Source of the DNA: Microbispora sp. H11081
Lineage (GTDB): Bacteria; Actinomycetota; Actinomycetes; Streptosporangiales; Streptosporangiaceae
Length of the DNA stretch: 64,000 nt
Reading direction: 5' to 3'
NCBI RefSeq assembly: GCF_012999535.1
Contig: NZ_JABBWV010000019.1
Location: 1 to 64,000, forward strand
Under the pieces are notes generated by a model. The model searched no databases, was not told the DNA's origin, and worked only from the letters and a program-made list of their open reading frames with translations. Position numbers and translations under genes: made by a program. Below are positions 8,799 to 28,752 of this stretch, piece after piece (within the stretch, counting starts at the first letter, position 1; the number at the start of each line of letters is the position of its first letter).

Positions 8799-9075
8799 GG
8801 CGCCTCCCTCTCACCTCGGCCCTGTGTGCCGCCAAGGGACGACCCGTACGACACCCCCAGCCCACACAGTGTCACCACTTCAGGCCCCGATGACAAGGTC
8901 TGATCTAGGTGTCCCTGACGGTTAGCACTTCCGGAGTGTGCGTCTGCACATGACGGCTGCACGTGCATTTGGGTCTTGCAGCGGCAGGAGTCGCTGATCC
9001 ATCATGTCTTAGGGGCATATTGGGCTAAATGTGCACCAGTCAGTCGACTTAGGCCAGCAGGAGGTACGGGCAACC

Positions 9076-9555
9076 ATGTCGGACGAGCCCAAATCCGGCG
9101 GCCAGCTGACCCGAGACGTGGGATTCGGCTGGTTCCGGAGGGCGGCCGGTCCGTCCGATAAGACGATGTGTCCCCTCGCCCCGCAGGCCGATTCGGTCAA
9201 GACCGCACGCGACATCACCCGGACGACCCTGCGGCAGTGGGGTCTGTCGGAACTGAGCGACGACGCGGCGCTCGTCGTGAGCGAACTGGTGACGAACGCC
9301 GTTCGTTACGCTCTGTGCCCGACGGCGCGCACCTGCGACCCGCCGATAACGCTGACGCTCCTTCACATCGCGCCGCACGTACTGCTCGCCGTATCGGACC
9401 CGAGCGACCAGGCGCCGTGCCCCGCACAGCCCGACTTCGTCTCCGAGCACGGACGTGGCCTCTACATCGTCGAGACCTACAGTCAGGCATGGGGCTGGGA
9501 CACCCTCGACGAGGGCGGCAAGGCCGTATGGGCCCTGTTCCGCACCGGCGACTGA
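9076..9555 (+). CDS. ATP-binding protein, HATPase (RsbW/SpoIIAB-like)
   Basis: Small GHKL-fold protein, about 159 residues. The N-box SELVTNAVRYAL and the G-box EHGRGLYIV are clear. Proteins of this type are anti-sigma kinases or their relatives in partner-switch circuits. The ATG at 9076 has AGGAGGT 10 nt upstream. The 277-bp gap to the divergent XRE gene contains an inverted repeat (8925-8941, gcact-n-agtgtgc) and two CTGCAC-RTG repeats (8944-8966) that could be regulator sites. Pairing with the XRE-DUF5753 gene suggests they act in one signalling module. The substrate is unknown. Confidence 0.88.
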   Translation: MSDEPKSGGQLTRDVGFGWFRRAAGPSDKTMCPLAPQADSVKTARDITRTTLRQWGLSELSDDAALVVSELVTNAVRYALCPTARTCDPPITLTLLHIAPHVLLAVSDPSDQAPCPAQPDFVSEHGRGLYIVETYSQAWGWDTLDEGGKAVWALFRTGD

Positions 9556-9668
9556 CGTTTCTCCGGCATAGCCGACCCTGCTGACTTCCTACCGGTGGCT
9601 CAGATCCCGAACGCTCGGTCGATGAAAGCGAGTGGCTGGCCGCCGCCTGCCTTCTTTAGTTTTGCTCC

Positions 9669-10451
9669 ATGACCGATCACCCGTTCCAGATCATCTGCGA
9701 GATCGAACCGCCCACCCGGCCAGACCTGAAGCAGGTTCGGCACCAGATCGGCACCCTGAGCAATGTGGCCGACGCTTTCCTCATACCTGACAACCACATC
9801 GGCCGTGCCACGGTGTCCAGCGTGGCGGTCGCGCACGAGGTCGAGGCGATGGGGGGCCGTAGTATCGCCTGCCTCAACGCACGCGACCGTAACCTGCTGG
9901 GGTTCCGCCGGGACCTGCTCACCGCAGCCGCATACGGTGTCGACCAGTTCCTGTTCGTCTACGGGGACAAGCCCAGTTCAGGTAGCCGCACCGGAGAGCT
10001 GAACGTGCGGGCGATGATCGAGGAGGTCAGAGCCCTGCCGAAGGACAGCGCGTTCGCGGGAGTGCGACCCTTCCGCGTCGGCACAGCGGCGGCGCTGCGT
10101 CCGGTGCCAGCCTGGAAGCGAGCGGCGGACTTCATGTTCGTCCAGGTCAGCTTCTCGCTGGAAGCCTTACTGAGGTGGCGGGACGCCAACCCGATGGACG
10201 TTCCGGTATATGCGGGCGTGATGGTTCTCGCCAGTGAGACGCACGCCCAACGTCTCGCGGCTGCGATCCCGGACATCGACATTCCGAGCGAACTGGTGGA
10301 GAAAGTCGCCTCCGACCGCCTCGCCGGTGTCGAGGCCACCTGCGAACAAGTGCTCCGGATCCGGGACTCCGGAGCCTTCGACGGCGTACATCTGATCCCG
10401 GTGGCCCGGTATCGCCAGGTAGCCGCCCGGCTGGAGCACCTGCTCAGCTGA
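9669..10451 (+). CDS. Methylenetetrahydrofolate reductase-like protein
   Basis: A 260-residue member of the MTHFR/MetF TIM-barrel superfamily. The N-terminal IICEIEPP segment keeps the glutamate that is catalytic in MetF. The rest resembles the FAD barrel, with FVYGDKPSSG in place of the usual GD loop. Its length is close to bacterial MetF but the sequence is divergent, so folate use is not certain. There is no Shine-Dalgarno sequence: TAGTTT (9657-9662) lies 6 nt before the ATG, as in leaderless genes. It stands alone, downstream of the HATPase gene and facing the tRNA-Gly terminator. Codon use looks slightly less GC-biased than its neighbours. Confidence 0.7.
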   Translation: MTDHPFQIICEIEPPTRPDLKQVRHQIGTLSNVADAFLIPDNHIGRATVSSVAVAHEVEAMGGRSIACLNARDRNLLGFRRDLLTAAAYGVDQFLFVYGDKPSSGSRTGELNVRAMIEEVRALPKDSAFAGVRPFRVGTAAALRPVPAWKRAADFMFVQVSFSLEALLRWRDANPMDVPVYAGVMVLASETHAQRLAAAIPDIDIPSELVEKVASDRLAGVEATCEQVLRIRDSGAFDGVHLIPVARYRQVAARLEHLLS

Positions 10452-10610
10452 CGGACATATCGGCAGTCCTGGCGGGTGATCGGTCCTGCGGGTCGTGGCC
10501 CTGCCACAGGAGATCATTCCCGGGCTGCGGAAGCACCTTGACAGGAAACACGGCGAGAAGACGGCGGGCACATGACGGGCACGACAGGAATCCGAAGGCA
10601 AGAAAAGATC

Positions 10611-10649
10611 AAGGCCCAGAGCCGGGATCACTCCCCCGACCTGGGCCTT
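10611..10649 (-). terminator. Terminator after tRNA-Gly
   Basis: Stem aaggcccag (10611-10619) against ctgggcctt (10641-10649), followed on the minus strand by TGATCTTTTCTT. Confidence 0.75.
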
Positions 10650-10658
10650 CTCACTGAG

Positions 10659-10729
10659 AGCGGACGACGGGAATCGAACCCGCGTAGCCAGTTTGGAAGA
10701 CTGGGGCTCTACCATTGAGCTACGTCCGC
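10659..10729 (-). tRNA. tRNA-Gly (anticodon TCC)
   Basis: On the minus strand it folds as a full cloverleaf: acceptor GCGGACG/CGTCCGC, D arm GCTC/GAGC, anticodon stem CCAGT/ACTGG with loop CTTCCAA (anticodon TCC), and T arm with GTTCGATT. It has a 4-nt variable loop and a T discriminator; the CCA is not encoded. Length is 71 nt. It is divergent from tRNA-Pro, with a shared 90-bp promoter gap. Confidence 0.95.
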
Positions 10730-10819
10730 GCGCGTCCGGTGTCCATCTGGTCTAGACTTCATCCGGTCGTCAGGGCGTAAGCGTACCGGAGTCTCGGACC
10801 GTTCGCGTACCCGACGAGA

Positions 10820-10896
10820 CGGGGCGTGGCGCAGCTTGGTAGCGCGCTTGCTTTGGGAGCAAGAAGTCGCAGGTTCAAATCCTGTCGCCCCGACCA
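10820..10896 (+). tRNA. tRNA-Pro (anticodon TGG)
   Basis: A 77-nt tRNA including an encoded CCA. Acceptor CGGGGCG/CGCCCCG, D arm GCGC/GCGC, anticodon stem CTTGC/GCAAG with loop TTTGGGA (anticodon TGG), and T loop with TTCAAAT. Its 3' half from 10849 onward is duplicated at 13226, which marks it as the integration site of the element that follows. The gene remains structurally intact. Confidence 0.95.
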
Positions 10897-10950
10897 GCAC
10901 GCATGCACGTCAAAGGCCGCCTCCGGTGATCGGAAGCGGCCTTGTCCGTC
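10849..10950 (+). repeat. attL: tRNA-side copy of the 102-bp direct repeat
   Basis: Starts at the tRNA-Pro anticodon arm (tgctttggg) and ends in cttgtccgtc. It is identical to 13226-13327 except at 10857 (g, against a) and 10877 (a, against g). It contains the 3' half of the functional tRNA and the terminator hairpin. Confidence 0.9.
10913..10943 (+). terminator. Terminator of tRNA-Pro
   Basis: Stem aaggccgc (10913-10920) against gcggcctt (10936-10943), 17 nt after the tRNA CCA end. The same hairpin is repeated in the right-hand copy (13290-13320). Confidence 0.7.
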
Positions 10951-10972
10951 CCCTGGGTGACTAACGGAGTGA

Positions 10973-11610
10973 CTACGGCTCTGAGCCCCCGAAGAGACGG
11001 TCCATCACCACGGCCCCCGTCTGCAACACCGGCCGGATCTGCTTGCGATAGACGATCTCCGTGACGGCCGTACTGCTATACCCCACAAGCCGGAAATCTC
11101 CTCCAGGGCAACCCCCGAGTCAGCAGCGAGACGAAGCTGTGCCGCAACTCCCGGGGCGTCCACTGCGAGGCATCCCCCTCCCCCGGCGTTCTTGAGCACA
11201 GCGCGGAAGGCGTGACGGACGTTCGCCGCGTCCAACGGCGTGCCGGCAGCCGAGGCGAACACGAGGCTGGTTTCGGCCCACTCATCGCCCTGCGCTTTGC
11301 GCTGCTCCTCTCGGTGCCGCCGCAGGACGTCCACACACCGTTTGGGGAGCGCGAGGGTACGCCGAGACCTCCGTGTCTTGGTGCCACCTCCCGAACGCAC
11401 TGAGCGCCACACAGCGACGTGAGGCGGGACGGGTGGATTCGCCTCGGAGTCTCCTTCCAGGTCTACGTGATCCCAAGTCAACGCTCGAAGCTCTTCGATA
11501 CGAGCACCCGTGAGCAGGGACAGCACGATGTAGGCGTGCGTCCTGGTCCCCTCGGCCGCTTTGAGCACGGCTTCGGCCTGGGCGAACGTCAGTGCCTTAG
11601 ACGGGCGGCC
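10973..11610 (-). pseudogene. Tyrosine recombinase (phage-type integrase), truncated and frameshifted
   Basis: The catalytic C-terminal half of an integrase is spread over three frames. The first has GRPSKALTF and LLTGARIEELR, with the first catalytic Arg. Near 11180 the frame shifts to give WTPRELRHSFVSLL, with the His-x-x-Arg region. A further shift near 11080 gives TAVTEIVYRKQIRP with the nucleophile Tyr, ending GGSEP then TAG. The N-terminal half is missing, with a stop just before GRPSK. It lies 23 bp inside the left repeat, as expected for the integrase of a tRNA-targeting element. It cannot make an active enzyme. Confidence 0.88.
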
Positions 11611-11670
11611 TCAACCCAGAAATGTTGATTAGCATCGTCACAACAATCTTGAACGCGGACGGGGGCGCGG

Positions 11671-11690
11671 CACGCCCTCGGCGCCGAGGG
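11671..11690. repeat. Perfect 20-bp palindrome
   Basis: Arms cgccctcggc and gccgagggcg meet without a loop. It lies between the integrase remnant and the DUF6881 gene, in a stretch (11611-11759) without a gene. It could be a leftover operator of the element. Confidence 0.5.
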
Positions 11691-11759
11691 CGCCATGGCG
11701 ACTACTGCCTGCCAGTGAACGCACTAACTCGCCGCGAGGCGCGTGGTCCTGAGGTTCTG

Positions 11760-12047
11760 CTAACCGCCAGGAGGGGACTCCCAGACCCGCTCGAACATGT
11801 CTCGGGTGATGACGAACTGCTTCCAGTCTTCGTCAGGATCAAACAAACTCGCCTGCCCGAGGCCGCCGTACCGGTCTTCCTTGTGTTCGGGCCCGTAGCG
11901 AAGGACCGGGCCAGCGTCGTACACCTCGACCTGACGCACCGGACAACCGTCGTCGTCGACCTCGAAGTACCAGACCGAGTGCCCCCAATCGTCGAACTCG
12001 TCACCGCGCGATTCGTCCCAGCGGCGGCGATAGAACTGGCCGTTCAT
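11760..12047 (-). CDS. DUF6881-like small protein
   Basis: A 95-residue acidic protein, rich in Trp, Tyr and Asp (RRWDESRGDEFDDWGHS, EVYDAGPVLRYG, ending WESPPGG). It resembles the DUF6881 family, known mainly from actinomycete genomes and without an assigned function. The start is the ATG at 12047 because similarity begins there; no strong ribosome binding site is seen. It is element cargo on the same strand as the integrase remnant. Its small acidic shape would fit an immunity-type or accessory protein, but that is speculation. Confidence 0.65.
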   Translation of the reverse strand: MNGQFYRRRWDESRGDEFDDWGHSVWYFEVDDDGCPVRQVEVYDAGPVLRYGPEHKEDRYGGLGQASLFDPDEDWKQFVITRDMFERVWESPPGG

Positions 12048-12139
12048 GGCCGGAAGCGTAGATCCACTGCTGTGCGCACACCTGCCGGCTCGCGGCAAAT
12101 GAGGCGCCGATTGAGGCGGGCGCTGGTCGTCCGCCGTCG

Positions 12140-12526
12140 CTATGACGCGACAACGACTCCGCCGATGCCTGTGCGTCCGGCCGGAGTGCCTACGAGTTCG
12201 ACCGTCACACCAGCGCGGACGCGCTCCCCGAAGACCTCGACGATGGCATCCGTGACTCCGGAGATGAGGCGGGCGATGATCTCGTCGGCATCGGGTCGGC
12301 TGAACGCGGCTTCCCTGATGCCGAACGTGACGCTCGGCGAGGGCGCTTGTGCTGCGATGCCGCCGATGCCCCATCGATCAGGGGGCAAGCCGATCAACTG
12401 TACGACAGCGATGCTTCGCGCCCATTCCCCGTAGACCGCGACAACCGCATCGGTCAGCTTCTCAATCAGGGCGGCCTCGCGGCCCACCAGATCGCTTTCC
12501 AGGACGTGGACGCTGAGATGGGGCAT
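12140..12526 (-). CDS. Tautomerase-family protein (4-oxalocrotonate tautomerase-like)
   Basis: A 128-residue protein starting MPHLSVHV; after removal of Met the N-terminal proline would be the catalytic base of this superfamily. Two beta-alpha-beta halves can be seen (LIEKLTDAVV and LISGVTDAIV helices), so it looks like a fused or tandem 4-OT unit. The substrate is unknown. The ATG at 12526 has GAGG 5 nt upstream. It is divergent from the MarR gene, with two operator-like repeats between them, so MarR control is likely. Confidence 0.8.
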   Translation of the reverse strand: MPHLSVHVLESDLVGREAALIEKLTDAVVAVYGEWARSIAVVQLIGLPPDRWGIGGIAAQAPSPSVTFGIREAAFSRPDADEIIARLISGVTDAIVEVFGERVRAGVTVELVGTPAGRTGIGGVVVAS

Positions 12527-12544
12527 ACCATCCTCACAAACAGG

Positions 12545-12573
12545 TTTGATGGCAAATTACATTTGATAGCAAA
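12545..12573. promoter_or_regulatory. Two MarR operator-like sites
   Basis: Two nearly identical 12-mers, TTTGATGGCAAA (12545-12556) and TTTGATAGCAAA (12562-12573), start 17 bp apart. Each has TTTG/CAAA inverted arms. They occupy the 67-bp gap between the tautomerase and marR-type genes, where a dimeric MarR would block both promoters. Confidence 0.65.
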
Positions 12574-12593
12574 CGTATTTGGAAGGTGAGCGG

Positions 12594-13067
12594 ATGTCAA
12601 CGCCTGACACCACAGACGATGTGGTCAGGGAGTTGCTCCTGGTGATGCCAAGGCTCGTCGGTAGGGTCAAACGTCTGCGGCCGCCGGAACAGTTGCGGTC
12701 ACTTGATCTAGCACCCCGGCATCTGTCGATGCTGTCCCTGCTCCTCCTCGAAGGTCCGCTGACCGTCTCTCAGCTGGCCGGGATGCTGGGTGTCGCGCCG
12801 ACCACGATGAGCTTGATCGTGAGCGACCTGAGCCGCAAAGGGATCTTGGTGCGGCGTGAGGACGACGCCGACCGCCGACGACGAATCATCGACATCAGTG
12901 CCGAGAGCCGTCCCGCCATCGCTCAGTGGCTGTCTCCGGGCGCCCATGCGTGGCGGCATGCCCTATCGCCGCTGAGCCCAGCACAACAGCGGACATTCGT
13001 CGACACCCTGCTCAGATACGAGGCGGCTGTCTCCACCGCGACGGAGACCGCACCTCAAGACGATTAG
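12594..13067 (+). CDS. MarR-family transcriptional regulator
   Basis: A 157-residue winged-helix protein. The recognition region LTVSQLAGMLGVAPTTMSLIVSDLSRKGIL and the wing VRREDDADRRRRIIDIS are typical of MarR. The ATG at 12594 is selected over an upstream start at 12579 because GGAAGG lies 7 nt before it. It is divergent from the tautomerase and likely represses it and itself through the two TTTGAT-RG-CAAA sites. The ligand is unknown, probably a small aromatic or unsaturated acid if it controls the tautomerase. It is cargo of the tRNA-Pro element. Confidence 0.9.
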   Translation: MSTPDTTDDVVRELLLVMPRLVGRVKRLRPPEQLRSLDLAPRHLSMLSLLLLEGPLTVSQLAGMLGVAPTTMSLIVSDLSRKGILVRREDDADRRRRIIDISAESRPAIAQWLSPGAHAWRHALSPLSPAQQRTFVDTLLRYEAAVSTATETAPQDD

Positions 13068-13225
13068 AGCCGCCGCGCATCCCAACCGACCGTGCGAGGA
13101 CAAGCTGCTTACCATGCGCTGTCATCGGCATGAGCGGAAGTGTCGCGGGCGACATCAACGCACAACAGTGCACGCTGACAGGCCTATCTACCAGGGCAAA
13201 TACCTGGTGAGCCCATCACAAAGAG

Positions 13226-13327
13226 TGCTTTGGAAGCAAGAAGTCGCAGGTTCGAATCCTGTCGCCCCGACCAGCACGCATGCACGTCAAAGGCCGCCTC
13301 CGGTGATCGGAAGCGGCCTTGTCCGTC
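13226..13327 (+). repeat. attR: right-hand copy of the 102-bp repeat, with tRNA-Pro 3' fragment
   Basis: Contains the tRNA-Pro anticodon loop to CCA (13228-13273) and the same terminator hairpin, but no 5' half, so it is not a functional tRNA. Upstream DNA (13068-13225) belongs to the element and holds no recognisable gene. Confidence 0.88.
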
Positions 13328-13375
13328 TCCTGGCCGACCGGCTGCGGCTCCGAGCCGGTCGGAGCCGGCCGGACG

Positions 13376-13768
13376 TCACTCCTCCTCCACGTACGGATGC
13401 GTGATGAACTCGATCGCGTGTCCGTCGGGGTCGTCCACGTACACCCCGCGGCCGTGATGGCGGTGGTTGACCTGCTGCGGCTCCTGGTGGTGCGGGCCAC
13501 CCCAGTACGGCAGGCCCCGCTCGGCGATGCGGGCGCATATCGCGTCGAACTCGTCCTCGGAGACGAGGAACGCCAGGTGCTGCATGACGATCCGGTCCCT
13601 GTCGACGATCGAGTCGGCGTAGTCGATCGTCACGCCGTTGGCGACCCGTACGGTGGCGAACGGCCCGAAGGCGCCGGGCTCCGGCTCGCCGAGCAGCCCG
13701 GTCAGGAACCGGGCGGACTCGAAGCGGTCGCTGCTGTGCACGATCGTGTGGTCCAGTCGAGCGGTCAC
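13376..13768 (-). CDS. VOC-family (glyoxalase/bleomycin-resistance-like) protein
   Basis: A vicinal-oxygen-chelate fold protein of about 130 residues, with the start LDHTIVHSSD, the mid motif MQHLAFLVSEDEFDAI and the C-terminal VYVDDPDGHAIEFITHPY, which carries the Glu/His metal ligands of the fold. Family members are small metalloenzymes or antibiotic-binding proteins; the substrate is not predictable. The GTG at 13768 has GGAG 6 nt before it; an ATG at 13798 is the alternative and lacks a binding site. It is divergent from the DUF2087 gene. Confidence 0.85.
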   Translation of the reverse strand: MTARLDHTIVHSSDRFESARFLTGLLGEPEPGAFGPFATVRVANGVTIDYADSIVDRDRIVMQHLAFLVSEDEFDAICARIAERGLPYWGGPHHQEPQQVNHRHHGRGVYVDDPDGHAIEFITHPYVEEE

Positions 13769-13818
13769 GGCGCCCTCCAGATTCTCCGCGGTCCTCATCG
13801 ACCCAATACCGTGGACAC

Positions 13819-14319
13819 GTGATCGACAAGCGCATCTCCCGCGTGCTCGGGCTGCTGGGGCAGGACGACACGCTTCGCGTTCTCGCCGGCCTGGTCCTGC
13901 GTCCCGGCGAGCCGCTCGACAAGGTCACCGGGCTCGGCCCTGAGACGGTGGCGAGAGCCCTGGACCGGCTGTCCAGGGGCGGCCTCGCCGTACGGGACGA
14001 GGAGACCGGCTGGCGGGCCCGGCCGGAGGCCTTCCGCGAACTGCTGCGCACGGCCCCCTCCGCGCCCGCGGACCCGATGGACGCGTTCCTGGTCGACGGG
14101 CGGCTCGTCTCCATTCCGGTGAAGCGGGCCAAACGGCTTATGGTGCTCGACTACATCGCCCGGGTCTTCGAGATCGGCGTGCGCTACCCGGAAAAGGAGG
14201 TCGACGTGGCGCTGCGGGCCTTCCACGACGACCACGCCGCCCTGCGCCGCTACCTGGTGGACGAGGGGTTCCTGACCCGGGAGGCGAACGTCTACTGGCG
14301 CTCGGGAGGAACCGTCTGA
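13819..14319 (+). CDS. DUF2087-family protein
   Basis: A 166-residue protein. The N-terminal part looks like a winged-helix domain ([31 protein letters not shown]). The C-terminal DUF2087 domain has [15 protein letters not shown] and the end RREANVYWR-like segment ([14 protein letters not shown]). Some family proteins are ArsR-like regulators; the role is unknown. The GTG start at 13819 has no ribosome binding site but TACCGT lies 6 nt upstream, a leaderless pattern. It shares a short promoter gap with the divergent VOC gene. Confidence 0.8.
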
Positions 14320-14383
14320 CCGGGTCCGGCCACATCGGCCGACTCCCTTTCCCGATGGGCCCCCGGTGCGGACACTGGGAGAC

Positions 14384-15742
14384 ATGGGTGAGCCGACCAG
14401 GGTCCTTCTCGACGAGTCCCGGATCCCCCGGAACTGGTACAACATCGTTCCCGACCTGCCCGCACCGCCTCCGCCTGTGCTCCACCCGGCGACGCTGCAG
14501 CCGGTCGGCCCGGACGACCTCGCGCCGCTCTTCCCCGCGGAGCTGATCCGGCAGGAGGTGACGGCCGAGCGGTTCGTCCCGATCCCTGACGACGTCCGCG
14601 ACGTCTACCGCCTCTGGCGGCCGACGCCGCTCATCCGCGCCCGCCGCTTGGAGCGCGCCCTCGGCACGCCCGCGCGGATCTACTACAAGTACGAGGGCGG
14701 CAGCCCGTCGGGCTCGCACAAGCCCAACACCGCGGTCCCGCAGGCGTACTACAACGCGCGGGACGGCGTGCGCAGGCTGACCACCGAGACCGGCGCGGGC
14801 CAGTGGGGCTCGGCTCTTGCGTTCGCCTGCGCCCAGTACGGCCTGGACTGCGAGGTCTGGATGGTCCGGGCGTCGTACGACCAGAAGCCGTACCGGCGCA
14901 CGCTGATGCGGATCTACGGCGCCACTCTGCACGCCAGCCCCTCGGCGGTGACATCGGCGGGCAGCAGGATCCTGGCGGAGGACCCGCACTGCACGGGGTC
15001 GCTGGGCATCGCGATCAGCGAGGCCGTCGAGGTGGCCGGGCAGCACGACGACACGCGGTACGCCCTGGGCTCTGTGCTCAACCACGTCCTGCTGCACCAG
15101 ACCGTGATCGGCGAGGAGGCGCTGGAGCAGCTCGCCGCCCTCGGCGAGACTCCTGACCTGGTGATCGGCTGCACCGGCGGCGGCTCCAACTTCGCCGGGC
15201 TGGCCTTCCCGTTCCTTCGGGAGAAGCTGGCGGGGCGGATGAACCCCGTGCTGCGGAGCGTGGAGCCGGCCGCCTGCCCGTCGCTGACCAGGGGGACGTA
15301 CGCCTACGACTTCGGCGACGCCGCGGGGTTCACGCCGCTGATGAAGATGCACACGCTGGGGCACACGTTCGTGCCCGACCCGATCCACGCGGGCGGGCTG
15401 CGTTACCACGGCATGTCGCCGTTGCTCTCGCACGTGTACGAGCTGGGCCTGGTGGAGGCCGTGGCCGTGACGCAGACCGAGTGCTTCGACGCGGGGATCC
15501 GCTTCGCGAGGTCCGAAGGGATCGTGCCGGCCCCCGAGCCCTCCCACGCGGTGGCCGCGACGATAGCGGAGGCGGCGCGGTGCGCGGAGTCGGGCGAGGA
15601 GAAGGTCATCGTGATGTCCCTGTGCGGGCACGGCCACTTCGACCTGCCCGCCTACGAGAGCCACCTCGCCGGTCGCCTGGAGGATTTCACGCTGCCCCGG
15701 GAGCGGATCGACGAGGCTCTGACGCATCTCCCCGCTGTCTGA
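14384..15742 (+). CDS. TrpB-like pyridoxal-phosphate enzyme (TrpB2 type)
   Basis: A 452-residue tryptophan synthase beta-like protein. The PLP lysine lies in SGSHKPNTA, the phosphate-binding loop is GCTGGGSNF, and the GAGQWGSAL motif follows. The long N-terminal extension with IPRNWYNI and [10 protein letters not shown] is typical of the TrpB2 clade, which acts without a paired TrpA. No trp genes are nearby, so it is probably a stand-alone synthase or indole-salvage enzyme. The ATG at 14384 fits the family start; GGGAG lies only 2 nt before it. Confidence 0.88.
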
Positions 15743-28321: not shown

Positions 28322-28752
28322 TCGGCGAGCTGGCGGATCCGCCGGGCGTGCCGCTCCGCCCCCGAGAACGGCGTCGCCAGGAAGAGCCCGACGAACCGGA
28401 CGGCCTCCTCCGGCGTGTGCTGCCGGGCTCCGAGGCTGATCACGTTGGCGTCGTTGTGCTCGCGGGCCAGCTTCGCCGTGTCCTCGTTCCAGGCGAGGGC
28501 GGCGCGCACCCCCCGCACCTTGTTGGCGGCGATCTGCTCGCCGTTCCCGGAGCCGCCGATCACCACCCCGAGGCTGTCCGCGTCGCCGGCCACGCCCTGC
28601 GCGGCGCGTAGCACGAACGGCGGGTAGTCGTCCTCCGCGTCGTAGACGTGGGGGCCGCAGTCCTCCACCTCGTGGCCCTGCTCCTTCAGCCAGGAGACCA
28701 GGTGATTCTTCAGCTCGTAGCCGGCATGGTCGGCACCGATGTAGACACGCAC
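28282..28752 (-). CDS. rpiB: Ribose-5-phosphate isomerase B
   Basis: A 156-residue RpiB/LacAB sugar-phosphate isomerase. The motifs VYIGADHAGYELK and GGSGNGEQIAANKVRG (phosphate loop) and the active-site region ALAWNEDTAKLAREHNDANV are present. It interconverts ribose-5-phosphate and ribulose-5-phosphate in the pentose phosphate pathway. The Ser in GGSGNG replaces the Cys base of Escherichia coli RpiB, as is usual in actinobacteria. The start is GTG at 28752. Confidence 0.94.
   Translation of the reverse strand: MRVYIGADHAGYELKNHLVSWLKEQGHEVEDCGPHVYDAEDDYPPFVLRAAQGVAGDADSLGVVIGGSGNGEQIAANKVRGVRAALAWNEDTAKLAREHNDANVISLGARQHTPEEAVRFVGLFLATPFSGAERHARRIRQLADYETTGELPPLPA

Follow-up and report, generated by a model that had tools for sequence, protein, structure and literature searches.

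The intact tRNA-Pro(TGG) gene described here is followed by a second copy of its 3' part, which raises the question of what was inserted at this gene and how much of it remains. The sequence-only reading of the window (the whole 64-kb stretch of DNA that was analyzed) had proposed a decayed integrative element in tRNA-Pro. We conclude, with a probability of roughly 0.83, that the window holds a decayed insertion of the actinomycete integrative and conjugative element (AICE) type in this tRNA gene; the element as such stood up to comparison with related genomes, but its boundaries and cargo, as first drawn, were not borne out. The features concerned are listed in Table 1.

Table 1. Features at the tRNA-Pro locus, in window coordinates
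Feature	Position	Strand	Basis
tRNA-Pro(TGG), intact, integration target	10820..10896	+	ARAGORN
Left direct repeat (attL), tRNA 3' half and terminator	10849..10950	+	Repeat comparison
Tyrosine integrase, truncated and frame-broken, about residues 172-384 of 384	10962..11610	-	Pfam PF00589 and comparison with the G001 integrase
DUF6881-like protein (weak match), 95 aa	11760..12047	-	24.1 bits, below the Pfam cut-off of 27
Tautomerase-superfamily protein, 128 aa	12140..12526	-	Pfam PF01361; solved 4-oxalocrotonate tautomerases matched in PDB; best homologue 91% identical
Candidate MarR operators: two TTTGN4CAAA palindromes whose starts are 17 bp apart	12545..12573		Motif search and 35 loci
MarR-family regulator, divergent from the tautomerase	12594..13067	+	Pfam; MarR homologue in divergent orientation at 26 of 35 loci
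Right direct repeat (attR-like), tRNA-Pro 3' fragment and same terminator	13226..13327	+	Repeat comparison
Short spacer; 8 of 14 relatives have a 0.83- to 0.86-kb, presumably crotonase-like, block there	13328..13375		Alignments with relatives

A repeat search gave a direct repeat pair of 113 nt with 96% identity (10849-10961 and 13226-13338). The five mismatches were located at 10857, 10877, 10951, 10957, and 10958, leaving two within the first 102 bp, exactly as had been described. Sixty repeated 20-mers were found in the window, and since their first copies were confined to the 50-bp bins 10850, 10900, and 53750, the 113-nt repeat is not due to chance. ARAGORN called one tRNA at the left copy and none at the right copy, in agreement with the view that the left repeat completes the tRNA whereas the right one is a fragment. 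The window thus shows a feature of AICEs, att repeats that bracket the insertion and derive from the 3' end of a tRNA gene; according to PMC3218068, most AICEs with tyrosine recombinases lie in tRNA 3' ends. A tRNA-Gly(TCC) gene was called at 10658-10729 on the strand opposite to tRNA-Pro. The genus sample comprised 15 genomes, the window's own included, and stretches were fetched for the 14 relatives and for G017 and G036, which belong to other genera. The tRNA-Gly/tRNA-Pro stretch was matched in all 14 relatives.

The site-specific integrase, another AICE feature, was present in the window only as a truncated, frame-broken remnant. A clear Phage_integrase match (PF00589) was obtained on the minus-strand ORF at 11005-11568, and comparison with the intact 384-aa integrase of a relative, G001, showed that residues 172 to 349 and 346 to 384 are retained as separate segments, the first of which matches poorly around residues 315 to 335. 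The genome protein search revealed three stops within the match, and the remnant lies in more than one frame. As the DNA similarity to G001 ends at 11610, approximately 171 N-terminal residues are missing, which bears out the claim that the integrase beside the left copy is broken. Relatives of this integrase were found in 12 of the 15 genus genomes, counting that of the window. Twenty such loci were fetched, and when the window's own was left out, 14 of the remaining 19 had a tRNA nearby (five Val, four Ala, three Thr, one Ile, and one Pro).

The evidence that the remnant derives from an AICE comes from G001, in which an element of approximately 18.6 kb (repeat start to repeat start) occupies the same tRNA-Pro gene. 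Twenty of its ORFs, selected by hand from 72 listed, were scanned with Pfam. The order was found to be the 384-aa integrase beside the tRNA, an HTH_17 protein that is Xis-like by position, a RepSA protein (541 bits) and, further on, an FtsK/SpoIIIE protein, and the element is therefore an AICE. Two more integrase-family ORFs (821 and 413 aa) were observed inside it (L038, 6988-10691), perhaps belonging to a nested element. The left end of the G001 element is 88.5% identical to window positions 10638-11610 over 978 bp of DNA, the start positions of the right repeat copy in the window and in G001 differ by at most 1 bp, and the G001 repeat is an identical run of 55 bp. In G011 the site is unoccupied, matching the right flank of G001 at 96.3% over 642 bp. 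When the two G001 flanks were joined and aligned with this empty site, 896 of 993 columns matched with gap runs of at most 10, so that for the G001 element the empty site in G011 lacks exactly one repeat. These data indicate that AICEs use the tRNA-Pro site in this genus. Further traces were a shorter integrase stub in G006 (94.5% over 440 bp) and an 82% match over 95 bp in G013, located at the end of a contig and extending slightly beyond the repeat. RepSA matches above the cut-off were also found at six places of the host genome outside the window (two overlapping rows on C43 being counted once), so that such elements are common there.

The AICE pSAM2 itself uses a tRNA-Pro. The G001 element has the RepSA, FtsK-type transfer protein, Xis-like protein, and tyrosine integrase of the pSAM2-type AICEs, and the Pfam description of RepSA (PF20199) names pSAM2. 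The window and the G001 element have the integrase end and the tRNA-Pro site in common, but the window holds only a remnant. Beyond the integrase end and the repeats, no part of the G001 element, not even its right end, matched the window interior at the DNA level. Neither RepSA nor the Xis-like protein of G001 had a match in window positions 9580-13167, and the FtsK-family protein gave none there at an E value of 1E-4. A Pfam scan of six ORFs between the repeats identified no FtsK domain, and two of these ORFs had no match at all. The search of the host genome for RepSA gave seven rows, all of them outside the window, with the closest one on this contig at 111978-113426.

The right edge of the insertion is not a plain junction, because a gene of approximately 0.8 kb that is absent here is present in 8 of the 14 relatives, among them the two closest. 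The homologous block, which from its sequence we take to be crotonase-like, lies beside the glyoxalase gene in G003, G004, G006, G007, G008, G010, G012, and G013, and in some of these other sequence separates it from the tRNA. Another small gene, presumably SRPBCC-like, is found instead in G001, G009, and G011, and neither occurs in G002, G005, and G014. A FastTree phylogeny of the right flank (16 sequences, some much shorter, such as 1.4 of 4.9 kb for G014, with G036 as the only other genus) grouped the window with its closest relatives, G004 and G008, both carriers, with a support of 1.000. When the tree was rooted on G036, the eight carriers and the window formed one group, and the crotonase-like gene has therefore most likely been lost from the window; the best match to it in the window's own genome was 40% identical. 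The joined flanks of the window were compared with G008 (one of the two closest relatives), G003, and G011, and aligned in two parts, which in these genomes are separated by additional native sequence (approximately 0.8 kb in G008 and G003 and 0.4 kb in G011). The predicted empty site lacking exactly one repeat unit was thus not found for the window in these three relatives.

Next to the integrase stub, the tautomerase and MarR assignments of the earlier reading were upheld above the Pfam cut-offs, whereas its DUF6881 assignment fell short (Table 1). A search of 150 genomes detected relatives of the 95-aa protein in 6 besides the window's own. Of 150 genomes from the family, 11 contained the tautomerase, the window's included, and a scan of named genomes gave 35 homologous loci, including those in Rugosimonospora africana (91%), Actinomadura soli (90%), Plantactinospora endophytica (88%), and Saccharopolyspora kobensis (86%). 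Within the genus sample, only G011 matched the tautomerase by DNA (65%; 60% as protein), and the MarR part was matched by DNA in six other genomes. The DNA similarity of the 35 loci to the window was confined to 12131-13054, approximately the edges of the divergon. The divergent MarR homologues beside the tautomerase were identified by tblastn (E value of 1E-5). When 4 kb on each side were compared, 20 pairs of flanks shared at least 500 aligned bases, 16 of them within one genus and the other 4 linking Amycolatopsis acididurans with Prauserella or Pseudonocardia. The tautomerase-MarR pair is thus a dispersed actinomycete divergon, nearest to other genera, and not part of one fixed neighborhood. 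It resembles the 4-oxalocrotonate tautomerase group with a MarR regulator in its Pfam matches, and the natural solved chains matched belong to the 4-oxalocrotonate tautomerase family; the window protein differs in its length of 128 aa, and self-similar BLAST segments suggest an internal repeat of the tautomerase unit. A literature search, judged by titles and abstract openings, found no paper on the divergent pair.

The data do not establish the earlier proposal that this cargo had outlived the mobility genes of its element. The integrase, RepSA, Xis-like, and FtsK proteins of G001 gave no match by tblastn (E value of 1E-6) in the 35 tautomerase loci, in a search that covered up to 8 kb on each side (some loci being cut by contig ends), had G001's own element as positive control, and would miss distant mobility genes. 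The same four proteins gave no match in 13 further loci, of which six contain DUF6881 relatives and seven are loci of the genus containing MarR relatives, and no DUF6881 relative was found near the tautomerase in any of the 35 loci. Within the reach of these searches, the divergon as AICE cargo in general was thus rejected. A tRNA was present in 1 of the 35 loci, and four plasmid records contained a tautomerase relative with 48 to 49% identity. The GC content of six interior segments was 60 to 66%, compared with 42% for the 67-bp promoter region and 69.6% for the window. It is conceivable, though doubtful, that the 0.92-kb divergon, together with its double operator, forms a self-sufficient regulatory cassette, which travels in one piece from one actinomycete family to another and has become fixed many times, the tRNA-Pro scar being one landing with the element as carrier.

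The operators noticed earlier proved to be the only two TTTGN4CAAA sites (12545 and 12562) in the 64-kb window. In 31 of the 35 loci, the 100 bp preceding the tautomerase match contained at least one exact site, whereas mononucleotide shuffles gave on average 0.05 loci with a site. Two sites were present in 17 loci, spaced by 17 bp in 16 of them and by 16 bp in one. The loci without a site were L111, L113, L127, and L131; the matches in L113 and L127 start inside the gene (query residues 11 and 13), so that their upstream regions were not really covered. The pair thus shows a feature of autoregulated MarR divergons, a palindromic operator that lies between the divergent genes and is conserved together with them, and the simplest reading would be that MarR binds both candidate sites and represses both promoters. 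For the tautomerase, 7 of the 35 loci were hand-picked among the better matches and gave pairwise NG86 dN/dS values of 0.10 to 0.19, and for MarR against 8 loci the values were 0.08 to 0.18 in seven and 0.44 in one (L100, 106 residues aligned); the values span the whole divergence from other genera and not the time since insertion. Because the ORFs and operators are intact and dN/dS was 0.08 to 0.19 in 14 of the 15 comparisons (0.44 in the other), retention of the divergon for its own benefit is plausible.

Three observations count against the decayed AICE: the interior without a DNA match to the G001 element, the missing native gene to the right of attR, which plain integration does not explain, and the 54 bp past the tRNA (10897-10950), which are identical in the two copies of the window, unlike attL and attR of G001, which diverge there. 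This identity would reflect either a terminator carried from a very close host, homogenized copies, or a scar imported as a block. Repetition into the terminator at full identity would also suit a tandem duplication of the tRNA 3' region followed by independent gene insertion. Such an origin with no element is very improbable, since an AICE occupying this tRNA in G001 has an integrase homologous to the stub beside the left repeat, and since the start of the repeat is displaced from that in G001 by no more than 1 bp; we rejected it on the integrase homology.

Two other scenarios concern the later history of the locus and are in part compatible with the decayed AICE. The integrase stub and the right repeat may stem from two elements at the same tRNA-Pro gene, a deletion between them having created a composite whose edges never bounded one element. 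This would accommodate the homology to G001 at the left end only and the repeated use of the site, seen in the stub of G006, where no second repeat was found in the fetched 15 kb, in a second tRNA fragment in G017, and in a block near the tRNA shared by G002 and G004; accretion at AICE sites is also described in PMC9513070. The two repeats, however, differ at just 2 of 102 positions, which one event easily explains, and no third copy was found within 9000-15000, so that a composite origin appears possible but unlikely. Somewhat less probable still is an import by homologous recombination from another lineage of the segment from tRNA-Pro to the glyoxalase gene, scar included, replacing the crotonase-like gene. 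In its favor, the window lacks this gene although it groups with two carriers, and both terminator copies, by eye, are more like those of G003 and G006 than that of G008. Of the spacers that precede the glyoxalase gene, that of G014, another genome without the crotonase-like gene, is most similar to the window's (score of 52 versus 29 to 43 in six others), but this match comprises 37 columns, partly of glyoxalase coding sequence. The whole window interior, moreover, was found in none of the 14 genus relatives, the best DNA match being 65% over the divergon in G011.

For the decayed AICE, we propose that an element of the G001 type used its own tyrosine integrase to insert in the 3' half of tRNA-Pro(TGG). 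The attachment site that it carried would have restored the 3' end of the tRNA, with a tRNA fragment (attR) remaining at the opposite end, a single element thus accounting for both repeats. Most of the element, including the N-terminal part of the integrase, xis, rep, and tra, would then have been lost, leaving the integrase stub, the DUF6881-like gene, and the intact-looking, horizontally acquired tautomerase-MarR divergon, which may have arrived with the element. MarR probably represses both genes from the two operators in the shared promoter region until a ligand lifts the repression. A second change would have removed the native crotonase-like gene to the right of attR.

A scar of this sort is ordinary and already described. 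PMC9513070 describes, in rhizosphere strains of Streptomyces, AICEs that have decayed to a partial integrase, cargo genes, and two repeats, and PMC3218068 terms some elements without tra or rep remnant AICEs or mobilizable elements; the window fits this kind of remnant. The example in PMC9513070 lies in a glycosyltransferase gene of Streptomyces, whereas the present one lies in tRNA-Pro of another genus and has additionally lost a neighboring native gene. The locus provides a clear further case of an AICE wearing down at a tRNA gene while a small regulated gene pair stays intact, and the occurrence of one operator pattern across several actinomycete genera makes the inducer and substrate of the tautomerase-MarR pair testable.

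The tRNA-Gly/tRNA-Pro stretch beside the glyoxalase gene is a variable, repeatedly used insertion site in the genus. In G017, a second 49-bp tRNA-Pro fragment was observed approximately 5.3 kb downstream of the tRNA (L054, 2183-7587); the interval contains a 695-aa ORF and what we assume to be a transposase-like fragment, and G017 gave no DNA match to the window's integrase. A 394-aa ORF, presumably transposase-like and IS481-like, lies close to tRNA-Pro in G004 (L050), and G002 (L052) shares 551 bp of this stretch at 94%. The tRNA-Gly side of the window (9568-10564, approximately 1 kb) contains an MTHFR-domain ORF at 9669-10451, and since in G003 no more than about 100 bp separate the matched blocks on its two sides, it also looks like an insertion point. 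A degenerate tRNA-Gly copy was sought to the left of the tRNA pair in the window and rejected, the best score being 20 against a mean of 17.4 and a maximum of 24 in shuffles. An ARAGORN call of a 91-nt tRNA-Ala(GGC) at 28417-28507 is suggested by its length to be false. Extra copies of the tRNA-Gly 3' part were observed approximately 1 to 1.6 kb from tRNA-Gly in G007, G013, G011, and G036 (L046, 441-503; L047, 2085-2180; L044, 3818-3861; and L053, 1008-1050; the last two in reversed-strand coordinates) and are possible att copies of elements in tRNA-Gly.
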